Origin: Aureimonas frigidaquae
Lineage (GTDB): Bacteria; Pseudomonadota; Alphaproteobacteria; Rhizobiales; Rhizobiaceae
NCBI RefSeq assembly: GCF_001463905.1
Contig: NZ_BBWR01000018.1
Coordinates: 62,001 to 126,000, forward strand
Length of the DNA stretch: 64,000 nt
Direction of reading: 5' to 3'
Under the pieces are notes generated by a model. The model was not told where the DNA came from. It did not search any database and saw only the letters and a list, made by a program, of their open reading frames with translations. Within the stretch, counting starts at the first letter, position 1. Each line of letters opens with the position of its first letter. Made by a program: the position numbers and the translations under genes. Positions 40,064 to 46,789 of this stretch are shown piece by piece.

Positions 40064-40870
40064 ATGAGCCTGTCAGTCGGCTCCGTGTCGCTGTCCGAAC
40101 TGTCGACGATCCGCGAGGGGATCGTCCGGCAGCCGATCCGCGATGCCATTGCCGACAAGCTCTCGCTCCTGATCGCCAGCGGCATTCTCGAAGTCGGGGA
40201 CCAGCTCCCCGGCGAGCGGGAACTTGCCCAAGCGCTCGGCGTCAGCCGCGAAGCCGTGCGCGGCGCCATCCAGACCCTGTCGCAGCGTGGCATCCTGGCC
40301 GTCTCGCAGGGCGCGCGCACGCGGGTCGTCAGCGCCGATACGGGCCCGGTCACGGTCGGCCTTGCCATGGCCCGGGCGGTGGATTCCTACCGCATCGAGC
40401 ATGTGAACGAAGCGCGGCTCCTGGTCGAGCGCCGGCTGATCCAGGAAGCATGCGGGCGGGCCACGGCGCGCCTCATGCGCAAGCTGCACGATCTCGTCGA
40501 CGCGCAGGCGATGATGCTGGACGATCCGGTCCGCTTCCTGATCTGCGACCGGGAGTTCCACGTCACGCTCTATCGCGCATCGGGCAACGCGCTGCTCGCC
40601 GATTTCGCGACCGACCTTTACACCTACATGATGGAGCATCGCCGCCGCGCGGTCCGGCTGACCGACGCGATTGCGCGCAGCGTGCGCGAACACGCAGCCA
40701 TCGTCGCGGCCCTGGATGCCCGCGATGGCGCGGCGGCCGTGGCGGCCTTCGCCCTGCATACGGGGCGCATCCGCGAAACGACGCTCCAAATGATGCACGG
40801 GCGCGATCCGCCCGCGGCACACCCGGCGCAAAGACCGCGACAGACCGGTCGACGCCACAACCCGTCCTGA
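40064..40870 (+). CDS. GntR-family regulator, FadR/FCD subgroup
   Basis: This 268-residue regulator has an N-terminal winged helix (LPGERELAQALGVSREAVRGAIQTL near residues 50-75) and a helical FCD ligand-binding domain (residues about 105-240). The FCD metal-type residues are seen as D-REFH (CDREFHVTLYRASGN) and REHAAIVAAL. The C-terminal tail is basic and proline-rich. Its AGAGGG ribosome site is only 3 bases from the ATG, closer than usual. It leads the binding protein/ATPase/permease/ApnL-like run, with 29 bases to the next gene, and probably senses a sugar acid or lactone. Confidence 0.9.
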   Translation: MSLSVGSVSLSELSTIREGIVRQPIRDAIADKLSLLIASGILEVGDQLPGERELAQALGVSREAVRGAIQTLSQRGILAVSQGARTRVVSADTGPVTVGLAMARAVDSYRIEHVNEARLLVERRLIQEACGRATARLMRKLHDLVDAQAMMLDDPVRFLICDREFHVTLYRASGNALLADFATDLYTYMMEHRRRAVRLTDAIARSVREHAAIVAALDARDGAAAVAAFALHTGRIRETTLQMMHGRDPPAAHPAQRPRQTGRRHNPS

Positions 40871-40899: not shown

Positions 40900-41883
40900 A
40901 TGGAACGCAGAACACTTCTCAAACTGACGGTCGGCGGCGCTGTGACGGCCGGGGCCGGCTTCGGGGCCCTGTCGCGGGCGTTCGCCGCGGGCAAGGACAT
41001 CGTCTACCTGACGCCCGGCCTCGACCTGCCCTTCTGGCGCTACCTGTCCAAGGGGATCGAGAAGGCCGTGACCGACAAGGGGCACGGCTTCCAGGCGCTG
41101 GACAGCCACAACAGCGCCCAGACGCAATTGCAGAACGCGCAGGATTCCATCACCCGGGGCGTCGGCGGCATCATCATCTCGCCGACCGACTCCTCCACTG
41201 CGCCGAGCGTGCTCAGCCTGGCGGAAAAAGCCGGCATCCCGGTCGTCATCGCCGATATCGGCACCAATAGCGGCGACTATGCCTCCTTCGTCATCTCGGA
41301 CAATTACCGCGGCGCGCACGATGTGGGCGTGGCGCTGGCCGAGGCGTTGAAGGCCAAGGGCTGGCAGGACGGCGGCGTTGCCATCGTGGCCATTTCCCAG
41401 GCCCGCAAGAACGGGCAGGCCCGCACGCAAGGCTTCCTGGACGGGCTCAAGGAAGGCGGCTTCTCCGGCCGCGAGGCCGGCATGCAACAGATGCAGAGCT
41501 ACACGACGGACGAGACCTTCAAGTTCACGCAGGACATCCTGACCGCTAATCCGGACCTGCGTGGCCTGTTCATCCAGACCGACCAGCCGGCCATGGGCGC
41601 ACTGCGGGCGATCAAGGCCGCCCGCCGCAACGGCGAGGTCCTGGTGGCGGCCTTCGACGGCATTCCGGATTTCGTGCCACTTCTGGAATCGGGGGAACTC
41701 GTTGTGTCCGGCATGCAGCAGCCCTATCTGATGGGCGTGCGCTCGGGCGAGGCTATGCTGCAGGTGCTGGATGGGCAGACGCCGGAGAAGGAGATCACCG
41801 TCCCGATCCTGGCCATCACCAGCACGAACATCGCGCAGGAGCTTCCGACCGTCAAGGAAACCGTCTTCGCCAACGAAGTCTGA
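40900..41883 (+). CDS. Periplasmic sugar-binding protein (Peripla_BP_4 type)
   Basis: This 327-residue substrate-binding protein serves the ABC transporter that follows. A twin-arginine-free signal (ERRTLLKLTVGGAVTAGAGFGAL) precedes the mature domain near residue 29. Motifs are DLPFWRYLSKGIEKAV, GVGGIIISPTDSS, GIPVVIADIGTNSGDYASFVISDN and, in the hinge, VLVAAFDGIPDFV. A strong GGAGG lies 6 bases before the ATG. The D-apiose-binding proteins belong to the same broad family, which fits the ApnL-like gene downstream, but the ligand is unproven. Confidence 0.9.
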   Translation: MERRTLLKLTVGGAVTAGAGFGALSRAFAAGKDIVYLTPGLDLPFWRYLSKGIEKAVTDKGHGFQALDSHNSAQTQLQNAQDSITRGVGGIIISPTDSSTAPSVLSLAEKAGIPVVIADIGTNSGDYASFVISDNYRGAHDVGVALAEALKAKGWQDGGVAIVAISQARKNGQARTQGFLDGLKEGGFSGREAGMQQMQSYTTDETFKFTQDILTANPDLRGLFIQTDQPAMGALRAIKAARRNGEVLVAAFDGIPDFVPLLESGELVVSGMQQPYLMGVRSGEAMLQVLDGQTPEKEITVPILAITSTNIAQELPTVKETVFANEV

Positions 41884-41950: not shown

Positions 41951-43870
41951 GTGTCGATTCATGCGGAGCCGCGGGCGCAGGAGGATCGTATCCTCCTGAC
42001 AGCGCGGAGCATTACCAAAACCTTCGATCGGACGCGCGCCCTGTCGGGCGCGGAGTTCGAGCTTGTCGAGGGCGAAGTCCACGGACTCCTGGGCGCCAAC
42101 GGCGCCGGCAAGTCCACCCTGTCCAAGGTGATCGCCGGTCACTATCTGGCCGATTCCGGCGAGATCACCTATCGCGGCCACGATATCCAGATGCGCTCCA
42201 CGCGTGATGCGCTGAAGGCGGGCATCGCCATCGTGATGCAGGAAACGAGCCTCGTGCCCGATCTCACGGTGCTCGAGAACATGTTCCTGCCCGAACTCGG
42301 GCGGCCCGGCCGGCTCGACTACCACCGTCTCCGGCGCCAGGGCGAGGAAATCCTGGAAGCGCTCGGCCAAAGCGAGGGCCTGCCCTTCGACCGGGAAGTG
42401 CGCAGCCTGTCCTCCGCACAGAAGCAGCTGGTGGAAATCGCCAAGGCGCTGGGCGTGCGCGCCAAGCTGATCATCTTCGACGAGCCCACCGCCGCCCTGA
42501 GCCCGGGAGAGGTCGACCGGCTCTTCGAGGTGATGGCGCGCCTGCGGCAGTCCGGGCGCGGCCTGATCTTCGTATCGCACCGGCTGGAAGAGGTCTTCGC
42601 CATCACCGACCGCGTCAGCGTCCTGCGCGAAGGCCGCACGGTCATGGCCGCCCGGCCGACCGCGAGCTTCGCCCAGTCGGAACTGATCCGCGCCATGGTG
42701 GGTGCGGAGCTGCAATCCATCTACCACCGGGAGCCGGCGGCAGCGCAGCCCGCCTCGCAAGAGGCCCCTTCGGCGCCGCCGATCCTGTCGGTACGCAACC
42801 TCGCCTCCGCACCCATGGTGCGCGACGTATCCTTCGACCTCGCCCCGGGCGAGATCGTCGGCCTTGGCGGGCTTGTCGGCGCCGGCCGGTCCGAAACGAT
42901 CGAGGCCATTTTCGGCCTGCGCCGCCGCGATGCGGGCACCGTGACGCTGCAAGGGCGCCCGCTTCCGGCCGACAGGCCGGACAAGGCCATCCGGGCCGGG
43001 ATCGGCTTCGTGGCAGAGGATCGGCGCACGCAGAACATCGTTCCCGACTTCTCCGTGCGGGAAAACCTCCTTCTGGCGCATCTGGGTGCACATCGCGGCT
43101 TCTTCTGCAATTACCGCCAAAGCGAACGCCAGGTGTCCGAACTCCTGGACGGGCTCGGCCTGCCGGCCGAGCGGCTCATGGACGCGTCCATGCTGAATTT
43201 TTCGGGCGGCATGCAGCAAAAGGTCATCATGGCGCGTTGGCTGCTGCTCAATCCGCGCGTCCTGATCCTGGACGAGCCGACCAAGGGCGTCGATATCGGC
43301 ACACGCGCCAGCATCTACGCCATGCTGCGAAAGGTGGCCGCGGCCGGCACGGCGCTGCTGGTCGTCTCGTCCGACTTCGAGGAACTGCTCGGCCTGTGCG
43401 ACAGGGTCGTCGTCATGAGCGACGGCCGGTCCACCGCGACCCTGCCGAGCGCGGCCCTGGACGAAGAAAAGCTCACGCTTTTGGCCGCGCCGCGCACCTC
43501 GATGGAGCGCAACACGCAGCTTCTGGAGCGCCTGGCGGCGGAATTCAAGGGCGCCGGCTTCTGGGCGCTCCTGGAAGAGGACAGCCTCATCTGCCTGAAC
43601 AGCGTGACGGCCAACGCCGCCGCCGATCCCGGCTTCTCCAGCGGCGAGGCGCGGCGCTTCGACGAGACGCGGATCGGCGCGGCACTCGCCCGGCGCGCCG
43701 GACATTTCGTGGACGATCCGCACCATGGGCGGCAAACGCTTCTCGTGCCGCTGCGCAGCCCGCGCGGGCACGATTTCGGCTGGATCGGGCTGACGGTGCC
43801 GCAAGGGGTCGAAACGCCTTTGGCCGATGCCATCCGCGCCCGCGTCGATGCCATGGCACAAAATCTTTGA
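41951..43870 (+). CDS. Sugar ABC transporter ATPase with extra C-terminal domain
   Basis: The first 505 residues or so are a normal double ATPase of the RbsA type. Domain 1 has Walker A GANGAGKS, signature LSSAQKQLVEI and LIIFDEPTAALS. Domain 2 has GLVGAGRSE, FSGGMQQKVIMA and VLILDEPTKGVDIG. A further stretch of about 130 residues follows (from MERNTQLLERLAAEF to the end). It contains GFWALLEEDSLICLN and GHDFGWIGLTV, reading like a small alpha/beta sensory fold of GAF or PAS type. Family members normally end near residue 510. The GTG start has GAGGAGG 10 bases upstream. Confidence 0.88.
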   Translation: MSIHAEPRAQEDRILLTARSITKTFDRTRALSGAEFELVEGEVHGLLGANGAGKSTLSKVIAGHYLADSGEITYRGHDIQMRSTRDALKAGIAIVMQETSLVPDLTVLENMFLPELGRPGRLDYHRLRRQGEEILEALGQSEGLPFDREVRSLSSAQKQLVEIAKALGVRAKLIIFDEPTAALSPGEVDRLFEVMARLRQSGRGLIFVSHRLEEVFAITDRVSVLREGRTVMAARPTASFAQSELIRAMVGAELQSIYHREPAAAQPASQEAPSAPPILSVRNLASAPMVRDVSFDLAPGEIVGLGGLVGAGRSETIEAIFGLRRRDAGTVTLQGRPLPADRPDKAIRAGIGFVAEDRRTQNIVPDFSVRENLLLAHLGAHRGFFCNYRQSERQVSELLDGLGLPAERLMDASMLNFSGGMQQKVIMARWLLLNPRVLILDEPTKGVDIGTRASIYAMLRKVAAAGTALLVVSSDFEELLGLCDRVVVMSDGRSTATLPSAALDEEKLTLLAAPRTSMERNTQLLERLAAEFKGAGFWALLEEDSLICLNSVTANAAADPGFSSGEARRFDETRIGAALARRAGHFVDDPHHGRQTLLVPLRSPRGHDFGWIGLTVPQGVETPLADAIRARVDAMAQNL

Positions 43871-43883
43871 TGGGAACGCCGCA

Positions 43884-44867
43884 ATGACCTCTGACACGAT
43901 CTCAACGGCCCCGCGCAGCCAAAGGGGGCTGGCCGAACGCCTGATCCGGCGGCTGGAAGTGCGCATGACGCTGCTGGCGCTCTTCATCGCGATCTGCCTG
44001 TCTTTCCTGTCGCCCTATTTCCTGACGCAGTCCAACATCTTCAACATGCTGGACCAATCGGTGGTGATCGGCATCGTCGCCGTGGGCATGACCTTCGTGA
44101 TCCTGACCGGCGGCATCGATCTATCGGTCGGCTCGGTGGCGGGCCTGACGGGCATCGTCCTCGGTCTTGCCTTGCGGGAGATGCCCATCGTGCCGGCCAT
44201 CGCCGTCGCGGTGGTGGCGGGTGGGCTCATCGGCCTGCTGTCCGGCCTTCTCATCAATGTCTTCGGGCTCGCGGCCTTCGTCGTGACGCTCGGCATGATG
44301 GCGATCGGCCGCAGCCTCGCCTACATCCTGTCCGGGCAGACGGCGATCTCCACCATACCCGATGCCATGCAAGCCATCGTCTACACCACGGTGCTGGGCG
44401 TTCCGACCAACGTCTTGTTCCTGCTCGGCCTCTATCTCGTCGCCTTCCTGTACCTGACCTATACGAAGGGCGGCCGCACCATCTACGCCGTCGGCTCCAA
44501 CAAGGAGGCCGCCCGCGCGGCCGGGCTGTCGACCGGCTTCTATGCCGTGCTTCCCTATGTCATCTCCGGGGCGCTGGCCGCCGTCGCCATCACCTTCTCC
44601 ATCGCGCAGCTTCTGTCGGCCGACCCGCTGATGGGCAACGCCATGGAACTCGACGCCATCGCGGCGGTGGTGATCGGTGGTGCGAGCCTTTACGGCGGGC
44701 GCGGCTCCATCATCGGCACGCTGTTCGGCGTCTTCATCATGGTGATGATCCGCAACGGGCTGAACCTGATGGGCGTCTCGCCCTTCTGGCAGGGCACCGC
44801 CATCGGCACGATCATCATTGTGGCCCTGCTCGCCGAACGCCTCGTCAGCGCGAAGGTGAACCGATGA
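43884..44867 (+). CDS. Sugar ABC transporter permease
   Basis: This 327-residue inner-membrane permease of the RbsC type has about nine hydrophobic segments. Motifs are LTGGIDLSVGSVAG near residue 75, the loop KGGRTIYAVGSNKEAARAAGL near residue 200, and VIGGASLYGGRGSI near residue 270. It is the only permease in this module and so should act as a homodimer. Its stop overlaps the ApnL-like gene start by four bases (ATGA), tying uptake to that enzyme. Confidence 0.92.
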   Translation: MTSDTISTAPRSQRGLAERLIRRLEVRMTLLALFIAICLSFLSPYFLTQSNIFNMLDQSVVIGIVAVGMTFVILTGGIDLSVGSVAGLTGIVLGLALREMPIVPAIAVAVVAGGLIGLLSGLLINVFGLAAFVVTLGMMAIGRSLAYILSGQTAISTIPDAMQAIVYTTVLGVPTNVLFLLGLYLVAFLYLTYTKGGRTIYAVGSNKEAARAAGLSTGFYAVLPYVISGALAAVAITFSIAQLLSADPLMGNAMELDAIAAVVIGGASLYGGRGSIIGTLFGVFIMVMIRNGLNLMGVSPFWQGTAIGTIIIVALLAERLVSAKVNR

Positions 44868-46789
44868 GCGACGCTCCTGCCCTCCCCATCCGGCTGTTCG
44901 GCACGCTCGAGGCGGCACCACCGCCGCGCATCCTGCGGGCCGGCGCGCTGACCGCCGAACTCGATGCTGGCAATCTGCGCCACATCCGCCTTGCGGGCGT
45001 GGAGTTGATCCGGGCCATCTCCTTCATCGTGCGCGATCGAAACTGGGGGACGTATAACCCGGTCATTCGTGACCTGACCGTGCAGGAGGAAGAAGACGGC
45101 TTCCTTCTGACCTACGAGGCGACGGCCGGCGACGCTGCGCAAAGCCTGACCTACAGCGCCCGCATCGCGGGGAAATCCGACGGCTCGGTCAGCTTCGAGG
45201 TGACGGCGCAGGCGCAGACGGCCTTCCTGACCAACCGCACGGGCTTCGTGGTGCTGCACCCGATCATCGGCGTCTCCGGCCGTCCGGTGCGGGTGGAGCA
45301 TGCCGACGGCACGCTGGAGGACACGCATTTTCCCGACCGGATCGATCCCGTCCAGCCGATGATGAACCTGCGCGCCCTCACGCACGAGGCAGCCCCCGGA
45401 CTGAGCGTCACCTGCCGCATGGAAGGCGATGTCTTCGAGATGGAGGATCAGCGCAACTGGACGGATGCCTCCTACAAGACCTATGTGCGCCCGCTCAGCC
45501 TGCCCTGGCCCTACACCCTGGCCGAGGGCGAAAGGCTGGAACAGGCCGTGCGGCTGAGCGTGGACGGCACCGCGCCGGCCGCCGCGGCGCAGGCCGAGCC
45601 CGTCGTATCATTGGGCGATGCGCCCGTGGGCACCGTCCCGCCGCTCGGTGCAGGGCTCGATCCCGCAGAAGTGCCGGCGCTGACCGGCGTCCCCGCGCCG
45701 GGGCTTGCCTATGTGATCTGCCACTACAACCCGGCACAGGGCCATGGCTTTGAGGATCTGCGGCGCATGGCGGAGGCGGCGTCATCCATCGGGGCCGAGC
45801 CCTGGCTGGAAGCCGTGATCGTCTCCGTCACCGATTATGGGGCCGAAATCGCCGCTTTGGGACATGCGGTCCGGGCGATCGGCACGCCCTTCCGCACCGT
45901 GGCCCTTTCGCCCGCGCCGGACCTCAAATGTACCCTTCCCGGCAGCCCCTGGCCGCCGGCTCCACCGCCTGAGGCGTTCTTCGAGGCGGCGCGGAAGGCC
46001 TTTCCCGGCGTCCGGCTTGCCGGCGGCATGTTCAGCACCTTCACCGAGCTCAACCGCAAGAACCCACCGACCGCGCTTCTGGACCTCATCACCTTTACCA
46101 CCACGGCGACTCTGCATGCGGGCGACGATCACTCGATCATGGAAGGGCTGGAATCTCTGCCTTCCATGGCCGCAAGTGCGGCGCACATCGCCGGCGGCAA
46201 ACCCTTCGTGGTGGGCCCCAGCGCCATCGGCATGCGGATGAATCCCTATGGGGAAGCGCCCATGTCCAATCCGGGCAATATCCGACAGGCCATGAACTAC
46301 AATGACCCACGGCATCGCGGCCTTCTGGGTGCAGCCTGGACGCTGGGCTTCATCTCCCGCTTTGCAGATGGCGGGGCGGCGGCCATCGCCATGGGTGACC
46401 TGGCCGGTCCGGCCGGGCTTTTTGCCCGCCCGCAGAACTGGCCGCAGCCCTTCTTCGACGAGGGTGGCGGCCTGTTCCCGGTCTTCCATGTCATGCGTGG
46501 GCTCAGCTCGCTGAACGCCCTGCCGCGCCTGCCCGTGTCCCATCCCGATACGGTGGAGGCTTTGGCCGCCCGCCGCGGATCGGGGGTGGAGCTGTGGCTC
46601 GCCAATCGAACGGGCGCGCACCAGGCCATCCGCGTCCCGGCGGTGCTGGACCGAATGTCGACGCTCGACGCCGACAGTTTCCGCCAGGCGGCCGGAGATG
46701 CCGACCATATGGACCATGCCGAAGGCGCGCTGACCACCGGCCGTGTGGAGATGGGCCCCTATGCCGTGCTGCGGCTACGCGGCGGGTGA
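44864..46789 (+). CDS. D-apionate lactonase-like protein (ApnL family)
   Basis: This 641-residue protein looks most like D-apionate lactonase, which opens D-apionolactone to D-apionate in bacterial D-apiose catabolism. Supporting features are the N-terminal beta-rich segment (RAGALTAELDAGNLRHIRLAG), SFIVRDRNWGTYNP, and a central TIM-barrel-like part with LITFTTTATLHAGDD and GPSAIGMRMNPYG. A C-terminal beta domain follows. It lacks a signal peptide, so it is cytoplasmic. It is coupled to the permease. The other apiose genes (dehydrogenase, oxidoisomerase, RuBisCO-like protein) are not in this window. I recognise the family from memory of short motifs; a different lactonase or glycosidase is possible. 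Confidence 0.55.
   Translation: MSDAPALPIRLFGTLEAAPPPRILRAGALTAELDAGNLRHIRLAGVELIRAISFIVRDRNWGTYNPVIRDLTVQEEEDGFLLTYEATAGDAAQSLTYSARIAGKSDGSVSFEVTAQAQTAFLTNRTGFVVLHPIIGVSGRPVRVEHADGTLEDTHFPDRIDPVQPMMNLRALTHEAAPGLSVTCRMEGDVFEMEDQRNWTDASYKTYVRPLSLPWPYTLAEGERLEQAVRLSVDGTAPAAAAQAEPVVSLGDAPVGTVPPLGAGLDPAEVPALTGVPAPGLAYVICHYNPAQGHGFEDLRRMAEAASSIGAEPWLEAVIVSVTDYGAEIAALGHAVRAIGTPFRTVALSPAPDLKCTLPGSPWPPAPPPEAFFEAARKAFPGVRLAGGMFSTFTELNRKNPPTALLDLITFTTTATLHAGDDHSIMEGLESLPSMAASAAHIAGGKPFVVGPSAIGMRMNPYGEAPMSNPGNIRQAMNYNDPRHRGLLGAAWTLGFISRFADGGAAAIAMGDLAGPAGLFARPQNWPQPFFDEGGGLFPVFHVMRGLSSLNALPRLPVSHPDTVEALAARRGSGVELWLANRTGAHQAIRVPAVLDRMSTLDADSFRQAAGDADHMDHAEGALTTGRVEMGPYAVLRLRGG

Follow-up and report, generated by a model that had tools for sequence, protein, structure and literature searches.

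A conserved C-terminal extension with a predicted GAF/IclR-type fold on an RbsA-type importer ATPase

The ATPase operon and the C-terminal extension

The window, a 64,000-nt stretch of an Aureimonas frigidaquae contig (NZ_BBWR01000018.1, positions 62,001 to 126,000), contains an operon for an ABC importer (Table 1). In addition to the ATPase studied here, the operon includes a Peripla_BP_4 binding protein and a BPD_transp_2 permease, both identified by Pfam, and the end of the permease gene shares a 4-base overlap with the gene for an ApnL-like protein. The ATPase has two ABC_tran stretches in one polypeptide (Pfam, E 2.6e-60). The top whole-protein profiles were AraG (460 bits), the xylose ATPase and YtfR, with every equivalog profile shown for the protein scoring under its curated cut-off. 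The second Walker A of the ATPase has an R in place of the K (GLVGAGRSE, from residue 307) and D475 is found in the second switch region; this combination is usual for RbsA-type proteins.

Table 1. Features of the importer operon and of its tailed ATPase (positions in the window)
Feature	Position	Strand	Evidence or remark
GntR/FCD-family transcriptional regulator, heads the gene set	40064..40870	+	Pfam FCD 1e-20, GntR 3.9e-16
Periplasmic sugar-type binding protein (Peripla_BP_4)	40900..41883	+	Pfam 8e-46 for 40909-41880; start codon picked by eye
RbsA-type (CUT2) double ABC ATPase with C-terminal sensor-like tail	41951..43870	+	639 aa, GTG start
Linker motif EEKLTLLAAPR[TS]S, ATPase residues 505-517	43463..43501	+	Column counts, 63 tails
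Predicted IclR-effector/GAF-like domain, ATPase residues 516-639	43496..43867	+	AlphaFold2, fold search, profile comparison, column counts
CUT2 permease (BPD_transp_2)	43884..44867	+	Pfam 2.1e-37
ApnL-like lactonase, probable paralogue	44864..46789	+	NF049900 603 bits, cut-off 750

RbsA-type (CUT2) ATPases end at ~500-520 aa, soon after the second ABC domain, whereas the ATPase in the window is 639 aa long. The ten top-ranked sugar-type ATPase equivalog profiles (AraG to ABC_ATP_B6) stop at residues 498-518, which leaves 121-141 residues as a tail and agrees with the ~130 residues that the original prediction placed beyond the second ABC domain. The two strings quoted in that prediction, FWALLEEDSLICLN and FGWIGLTV, are both found in the translated ATPase. 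The prediction also located the region correctly, although the start given for it, 43465, is out of the coding frame and the in-frame start of the tail is 43460/43463. When searched alone, the window's tail matched no family at E <= 1 in Pfam and NCBIfam, so that neither of these libraries recognizes it as a known regulatory tail, and a search of PHROGs gave no match.

The extension had been described as irregular for RbsA-type ATPases, and the window's own genome bears this out. The 27 best-scoring other double-ABC ATPases encoded there, which are the top of a longer list with weaker matches, are 31-42% identical to the studied ATPase and all are without the tail (for one of them, L129, the match is interrupted by a stop). 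With matching to the core only, 26 of the 27 end no more than 36 residues past the core match; the remaining paralogue, L134, continues for 343 hydrophobic residues that appear permease-like by eye. The tail profile matches a single place in the genome, the window's tail. We also noted a large set of CUT2-type importers, in that at least 28 long double ATPases of the RbsA-like type, the studied one among them, are encoded in this 4.1-Mb genome.

Conservation, predicted fold and kinship of the tail

To describe the tail at the sequence level, homologues from the loci reported below were aligned. Five broken or partial copies (L034, L041, L084, L088 and L096) were left out, after which 92 tails collapsed to 74 distinct sequences, 63 of which are in the alignment; of the other 11, ten were thinned as near relatives and one, L092, was omitted for an ambiguous residue. 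Identity to the window's tail is 26-66%. Residues identical in 63/63 tails include A513, P514, R515, S517, L525, W538, C548, G565, R605 and G610, while residue 596 is T in 57/63 and S in 5/63 tails and residue 615 is T in 36/63 and S in 17/63. For 19 pairs of near relatives, dN/dS was 0.10-0.28 in the tail vs 0.04-0.22 in the core, with the tail value exceeding the core value in 16/19; these pairs come from four Kaistia, three Labrys, four Mesorhizobium and three Jiella loci, are non-independent and include one pair titled Mesorhizobium sp. BR1-1-16/Kaistia soli. The tail is under purifying selection, which is looser than that on the core in most pairs. Poor conservation, which the original prediction had named as grounds for abandoning it, was not seen.

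AlphaFold2 modeling of the tail alone, using the 63-tail alignment, gave a pLDDT of 88.4 and a pTM of 0.84. The predicted elements are in the order H-E-E-(E-h-E)-E-E-H, with a short middle part between strand pairs and helices at the ends. The PDB chains matched by Foldseek with this model at E <= 1e-3 numbered 19. IclR-family regulators account for 16 (untitled chains were given the IclR family by a separate lookup), and the other three are DevS GAF-B (2vks) and a Geobacter domain represented twice (3e0y). Using VIA-align 2, we obtained Z 12.0 to the IclR-type domains 3bjn and 1td5_C, with an rmsd of 2.9 over 123 residues between 1td5_C and the predicted model, Z 11.3 to PcaR (8ejv_A), Z 9.5-11 to phytochrome-type, cyanobacteriochrome-type and DevS GAF domains (9.9 for 2vks) and Z 9.6 to fRMsr (4mn7). 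Since rows within one Z unit are tied, the fold alone does not separate IclR-type from GAF domains. This structure prediction and fold search, both of which had been proposed as checks, give a confident prediction of a GAF/IclR-type fold for the tail. In a model of the full-length ATPase, the elements of the tail were unchanged and the overall pTM was 0.64, which leaves the placement of the tail on the NBDs unsure.

Searches with single profiles assigned the tail to no family: none of the 63 tails had a Pfam family over the cut-off. None reached the gathering score for the GAF families (PF01590, PF13185 and PF13492), with the best sub-threshold matches being to GAF_2 (E 0.019, 1/63 tails) and GAF_3 (E 0.084, 2/63), and IclR_C (PF01614) was listed for 0/63 tails at E <= 10, in a search where the HMMER filters drop most matches above ~0.1. 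A PDB sequence search with eight tails gave chance-level matches only (best E 0.044). Comparison of the tails with 25 IclR_C domains using hhalign, however, gave a probability of 89, P 2.3e-6 and a score of 42.6 for tail positions 21-76, above all of the controls run against the same 25 domains. These were 100 column shuffles (<= 19.4), the reversed profile (14.7), blocks of the core without tail columns (<= 21.7) and known GAF_2 domains (29.5); a block overlapping the start of the tail scored 25.3 and a block with most of the tail 41.4. With domains taken from the window's genome, P was 4.8e-4 for five IclR_C domains, where 60 column shuffles scored <= 20.4, and 0.071 for eight GAF_2 domains, two sets that differ in size.

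In the alignment of the tail with the five IclR_C domains, TLLVP aligns with CIAAP and GLTVP with GVSGP, stretches that we take to be the site of the glyoxylate-binding cysteine and serines in E. coli IclR. Residues 596 and 615 of the tail, which are aligned with these stretches, are mostly hydroxyl residues across the 63 tails. The profile comparison and the model together place the tail within the GAF fold as an IclR-effector-like domain, shorter than IclR_C. Of the GAF/PAS-like character originally ascribed to the tail, the GAF-like part is supported by the predicted model, Foldseek and VIA-align 2, while the PAS part is not, with profile and fold favoring the IclR effector-binding branch. 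Taking the prediction and the column counts together, what follows the second ABC domain is a conserved extra domain that is predicted to be folded.

Recurrence, origin and gene neighborhood

Homologues of the tail were found in 8/101 relatives, in 28/397 genomes of the order (where the match in G291 is short and weak) and in 5/398 genomes of the phylum, with the window's genome included each time. The tail was also found at 61 loci of the genome_contigs set, the titles of which are mostly alphaproteobacterial with one Castellaniella MAG; this number is a minimum as the scan used two peptide patterns only. The four sets overlap and the counts are not additive. Among plasmids, 3/72,556 records carry the tail, each at <60% identity. 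Recurrence of the tail is beyond chance. For 59/61 loci, the tail is the C-terminal part of a single open frame (>= 629 codons) with the ABC core, the two exceptions, both MAGs, being L034 (stop within the tail) and L041 (truncated frame). In the MAG copy of the tailed ATPase that appears as L034, L084 and L147 (G388:C43), a TAG interrupts the frame near the start of the tail, which may be a sequencing error or a genuine truncation.

Among 249 genomes of the order, 16 contain a total of 17 cores that were matched at E <= 1e-122 in a core-only search, with 52-100% identity, and the tail is directly behind all 17 of these near-orthologous cores. When 60 cores were placed in a tree, all 29 with a tail grouped as one clade with support 100/100; the 31 tailless rows are the 27 paralogues and four ApnL neighbors, so that a single origin is tested against those only. 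The single tailed clade and the 17/17 tailed near-orthologues fit one gain followed by stable retention. One lineage within the RbsA-type importer ATPases thus apparently acquired the tail a single time and has kept it.

The window's gene order (GntR regulator, binding protein, ATPase, permease and ApnL-like gene) is seen again at other tailed loci. We counted neighbors by tblastn, given that long antisense ORFs in GC-rich DNA confuse ORF clustering, with identity floors of 35% for ApnL, 38% for OtnI and 40% for DenD, OtnK and OtnC; all counts are minima, as flanks extend at most 8 kb and some contigs are shorter. An ApnL-like gene is present at 48/61 tailed loci (two of the matches, at L014 and L027, are cut off by the contig end), and the suggestion that the extension might recur beside such genes therefore held. 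The tetronate genes detected were those for the D-erythronate dehydrogenase DenD (31 loci), the 3-oxo-tetronate kinase OtnK (17), the 4-phosphate decarboxylase OtnC (15) and the isomerase OtnI (12), with any of the four at 32 of the 61 loci. NCBIfam naming of representatives placed DenD, OtnK and OtnC over the cut-off, and OtnI at 272.6 vs 325. There is no DenD/Otn gene in the window and none in the available flank at 29/61 loci, which include those of Labrys, Mesorhizobium and some others. The ApnL-like gene is missing at 13/61 loci, at one of which, L018, the next annotated neighbor is HSP90.

For the diverged tails L137-L139, all from one genus, DenD is nearby with no ApnL match. We noted that L138 has an SMP-30-type lactonase gene after the permease, as well as a xylose-isomerase-like neighbor; the lactonase step of a similar pathway may here fall to an enzyme of a different type. 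L140 and L141, which have the most divergent tails, have neighbor families in common, unlike the other loci. Those of L141 include genes for a MaoC-like dehydratase and an amidohydrolase, and the acid sensed by the tail may be a different one at these loci.

The lactonase neighbor is a clear homologue of ApnL, but the label is approximate, given a score under the cut-off and a wider context of tetronate rather than apionate genes. In the order sample, an ApnL-like gene is found <= 2 kb behind the tail in 17/28 tail genomes. The link in the opposite direction is loose: of the order genomes, 66 have an ApnL-family match, which is located behind a tailed ATPase in 17 of them, and 45 of the 66 are without any tail match. 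No tail was found in four stretches of 15 kb around ApnL genes over the cut-off (L150-L153), the ATPases of which are 35-38% identical in the core. ApnL genes under the cut-off are likewise common without a tail, and three stretches around such genes (L154-L156) have no tail and no core match as long as 400 residues. We considered reading the operon as one for apionate, which is weakened by the lack of a tail match in the 12 order genomes with ApnL over the cut-off and by the 563-655 bits (cut-off 750) of the tail-adjacent ApnL-like genes.

The region C11:1-5262 of the window's genome contains another ApnL-like gene (747 bits), which is truncated by the contig start, together with a GntR homologue and, ~2 kb downstream of the ApnL-like gene, a gene for an OiaK-like kinase (441 bits, cut-off 700). 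This set is the likelier D-apionate cluster of the genome, and the window's ApnL-like gene is thus probably a paralogue acting on another substrate. Elsewhere in the genome there is an OtnK over the cut-off, and homologues of OtnK, OtnI and OtnC are on contig C7. A tailless RbsA paralogue (C11:89402-90871) is located ~3 kb from an OtnK-family gene (C11:93990) on the opposite strand, so tetronate-linked transporters may also be without a tail. Our reading of the gene context is that the importer takes up a C4 sugar acid or lactone, or a larger compound yielding one.

Proposed function and comparison with known systems

We infer ligand binding by the tail, the identity of the ligand, the direction of its effect and the presence of a single tail per transporter, as follows. 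The tail would have a GAF fold, with the IclR effector-binding domain as its nearest counterpart, and would serve as a small module for ligand binding. Its ligand is most likely an intermediate, present in the cytoplasm, of the pathway supplied by the importer. Candidate ligands from the gene context are D-erythronate, L-threonate and oxo-tetronate, that is, a C4 sugar acid or its lactone. By analogy with other importers, binding would alter the rate at which the two attached NBDs hydrolyze ATP, with the most likely outcome being slower uptake as the intermediate accumulates (feedback or trans-inhibition), though activation is possible. RbsA-type transporters use one double-NBD ATPase, and one tail per transporter would be expected because both NBDs are on one polypeptide, unlike for MetN or ModC. 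With the R in the Walker A and D475 in the second NBD, the tail would hang on the weaker site. The presence of this domain suggests, as a predicted function, that uptake is adjusted directly by an intracellular chemical. We give somewhat better than an even chance to the tail being a GAF-fold ligand sensor, gained once in an RbsA lineage, through which a cytoplasmic pathway intermediate tunes the attached ATPase. It seems plausible to us, at slightly less than an even chance, that the whole lineage adopted the IclR ligand-sensing fold and uses it, as part of the ATPase, for allosteric sensing of a C4 sugar-acid intermediate.

Other roles can be imagined for a domain of this fold. Ligand binding could have been lost and the tail could now serve structure or assembly, dimerizing ATPases, linking two transporters or recruiting a partner such as the lactonase, a rather unlikely reading for which the invariant linker APR[TS]S together with R605 and G610 would offer an interface and which would fit the stable gene order beside the lactonase (48/61). 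However, the nearest fold and profile matches are effector-binding domains, and the residues aligned with the Cys and Ser of the IclR pocket are small and polar, with T or S at position 596 in 62/63 tails and at position 615 in 53/63, positions that presumably are those of the pocket. We think it improbable that the tail is a redox or thiol sensor acting through C548. GAF-fold enzymes such as fRMsr, which is among the fold matches (4mn7, Z 9.6), use cysteines, and C548 is in 63/63 tails, 41/63 of which have one cysteine only. Yet fRMsr uses several cysteines vs the one invariant cysteine here, and the context is sugar-acid catabolism, not redox defense.

The matches to phytochrome- and cyanobacteriochrome-type GAF domains (Z 9.5-11) would also allow a cyclic-nucleotide or chromophore GAF domain. 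This is very improbable, as NKXnFX3DE, the motif of cyclic-nucleotide GAFs, is found in 0/63 tails and, with domains from the same genome, the profile comparison gave P 0.071 for the eight GAF_2 domains vs 4.8e-4 for the five IclR_C domains. Finally, an unstructured or decaying extension with no function might be suspected from the 26-66% identity to the window's tail, the tail dN/dS above that of the core in 16/19 pairs and the one MAG copy with an in-frame stop in the tail. The confident predicted fold, the dN/dS of 0.10-0.28 and the retention in 17/17 near-orthologues already contradict this explanation, which we find hardly credible.

If the tail is a ligand sensor, as we propose, feedback control of RbsA-type transporters would be directly testable, and the effector fold of a transcription factor would have been reused on a transport motor. 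The tail also is a sequence marker for an apparent uptake system tied to lactone/tetronate catabolism. In predicted fold and profile similarity, it resembles the IclR effector-binding domain (PF01614; E. coli IclR, AllR, KdgR and PcaR), and solved members of the IclR family bind small organic acids, with glyoxylate, succinate and 4-hydroxybenzoate named in PDB entry titles. Unlike IclR, the tail is fused to an ABC ATPase with no winged-helix DNA-binding domain in the same protein, and it has ~120 residues compared to ~170 for IclR_C, with ~40 IclR columns skipped in the alignment. The studied ATPase has the two ABC domains, the R in the second Walker A and the D475 expected of RbsA/AraG/XylG-type (CUT2) proteins but differs from them in scoring under the equivalog cut-offs shown and in the extra C-terminal domain. 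Compared to the D-apionate lactonase ApnL clusters (NF049900), the window's neighbor is homologous but under 750 bits, and the over-cut-off stretches are without the tail.

MetN, ModC and OpuA, the last of which we take to be the CBS-bearing importer of the literature, likewise have a C-terminal domain, though folds and importer classes differ from those of the ATPase studied here. In a review (PMC10710835), this domain on the NBD protein of MetN (C2), ModC and the CBS-bearing importer is described as sensing a cytoplasmic ligand and changing activity, with ModC's domain acting at the dimer interface, and many transporters are said to have fused domains of undefined role; the terms GAF and RbsA have no occurrence in that review. 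Unlike ModC, the studied ATPase has both NBDs and one tail on a single polypeptide, and we consider its tail to be analogous to those of MetN and ModC, not homologous. For several ABC importers, it is established that C-terminal domains exert post-translational control; among the matches listed in the open-licence literature, covered as titles and abstract openings and with most subscription journals outside it, we found no case for an RbsA-type sugar importer and no report of such a domain on an RbsA-type ATPase. C-terminal regulatory domains on ABC importers are known, and the IclR/GAF-like tail on an RbsA-type ATPase appears to be new by this literature. If our reading is true, flux would be controlled on the motor itself, by one sensor per transporter vs the symmetric pair of MetN and ModC.
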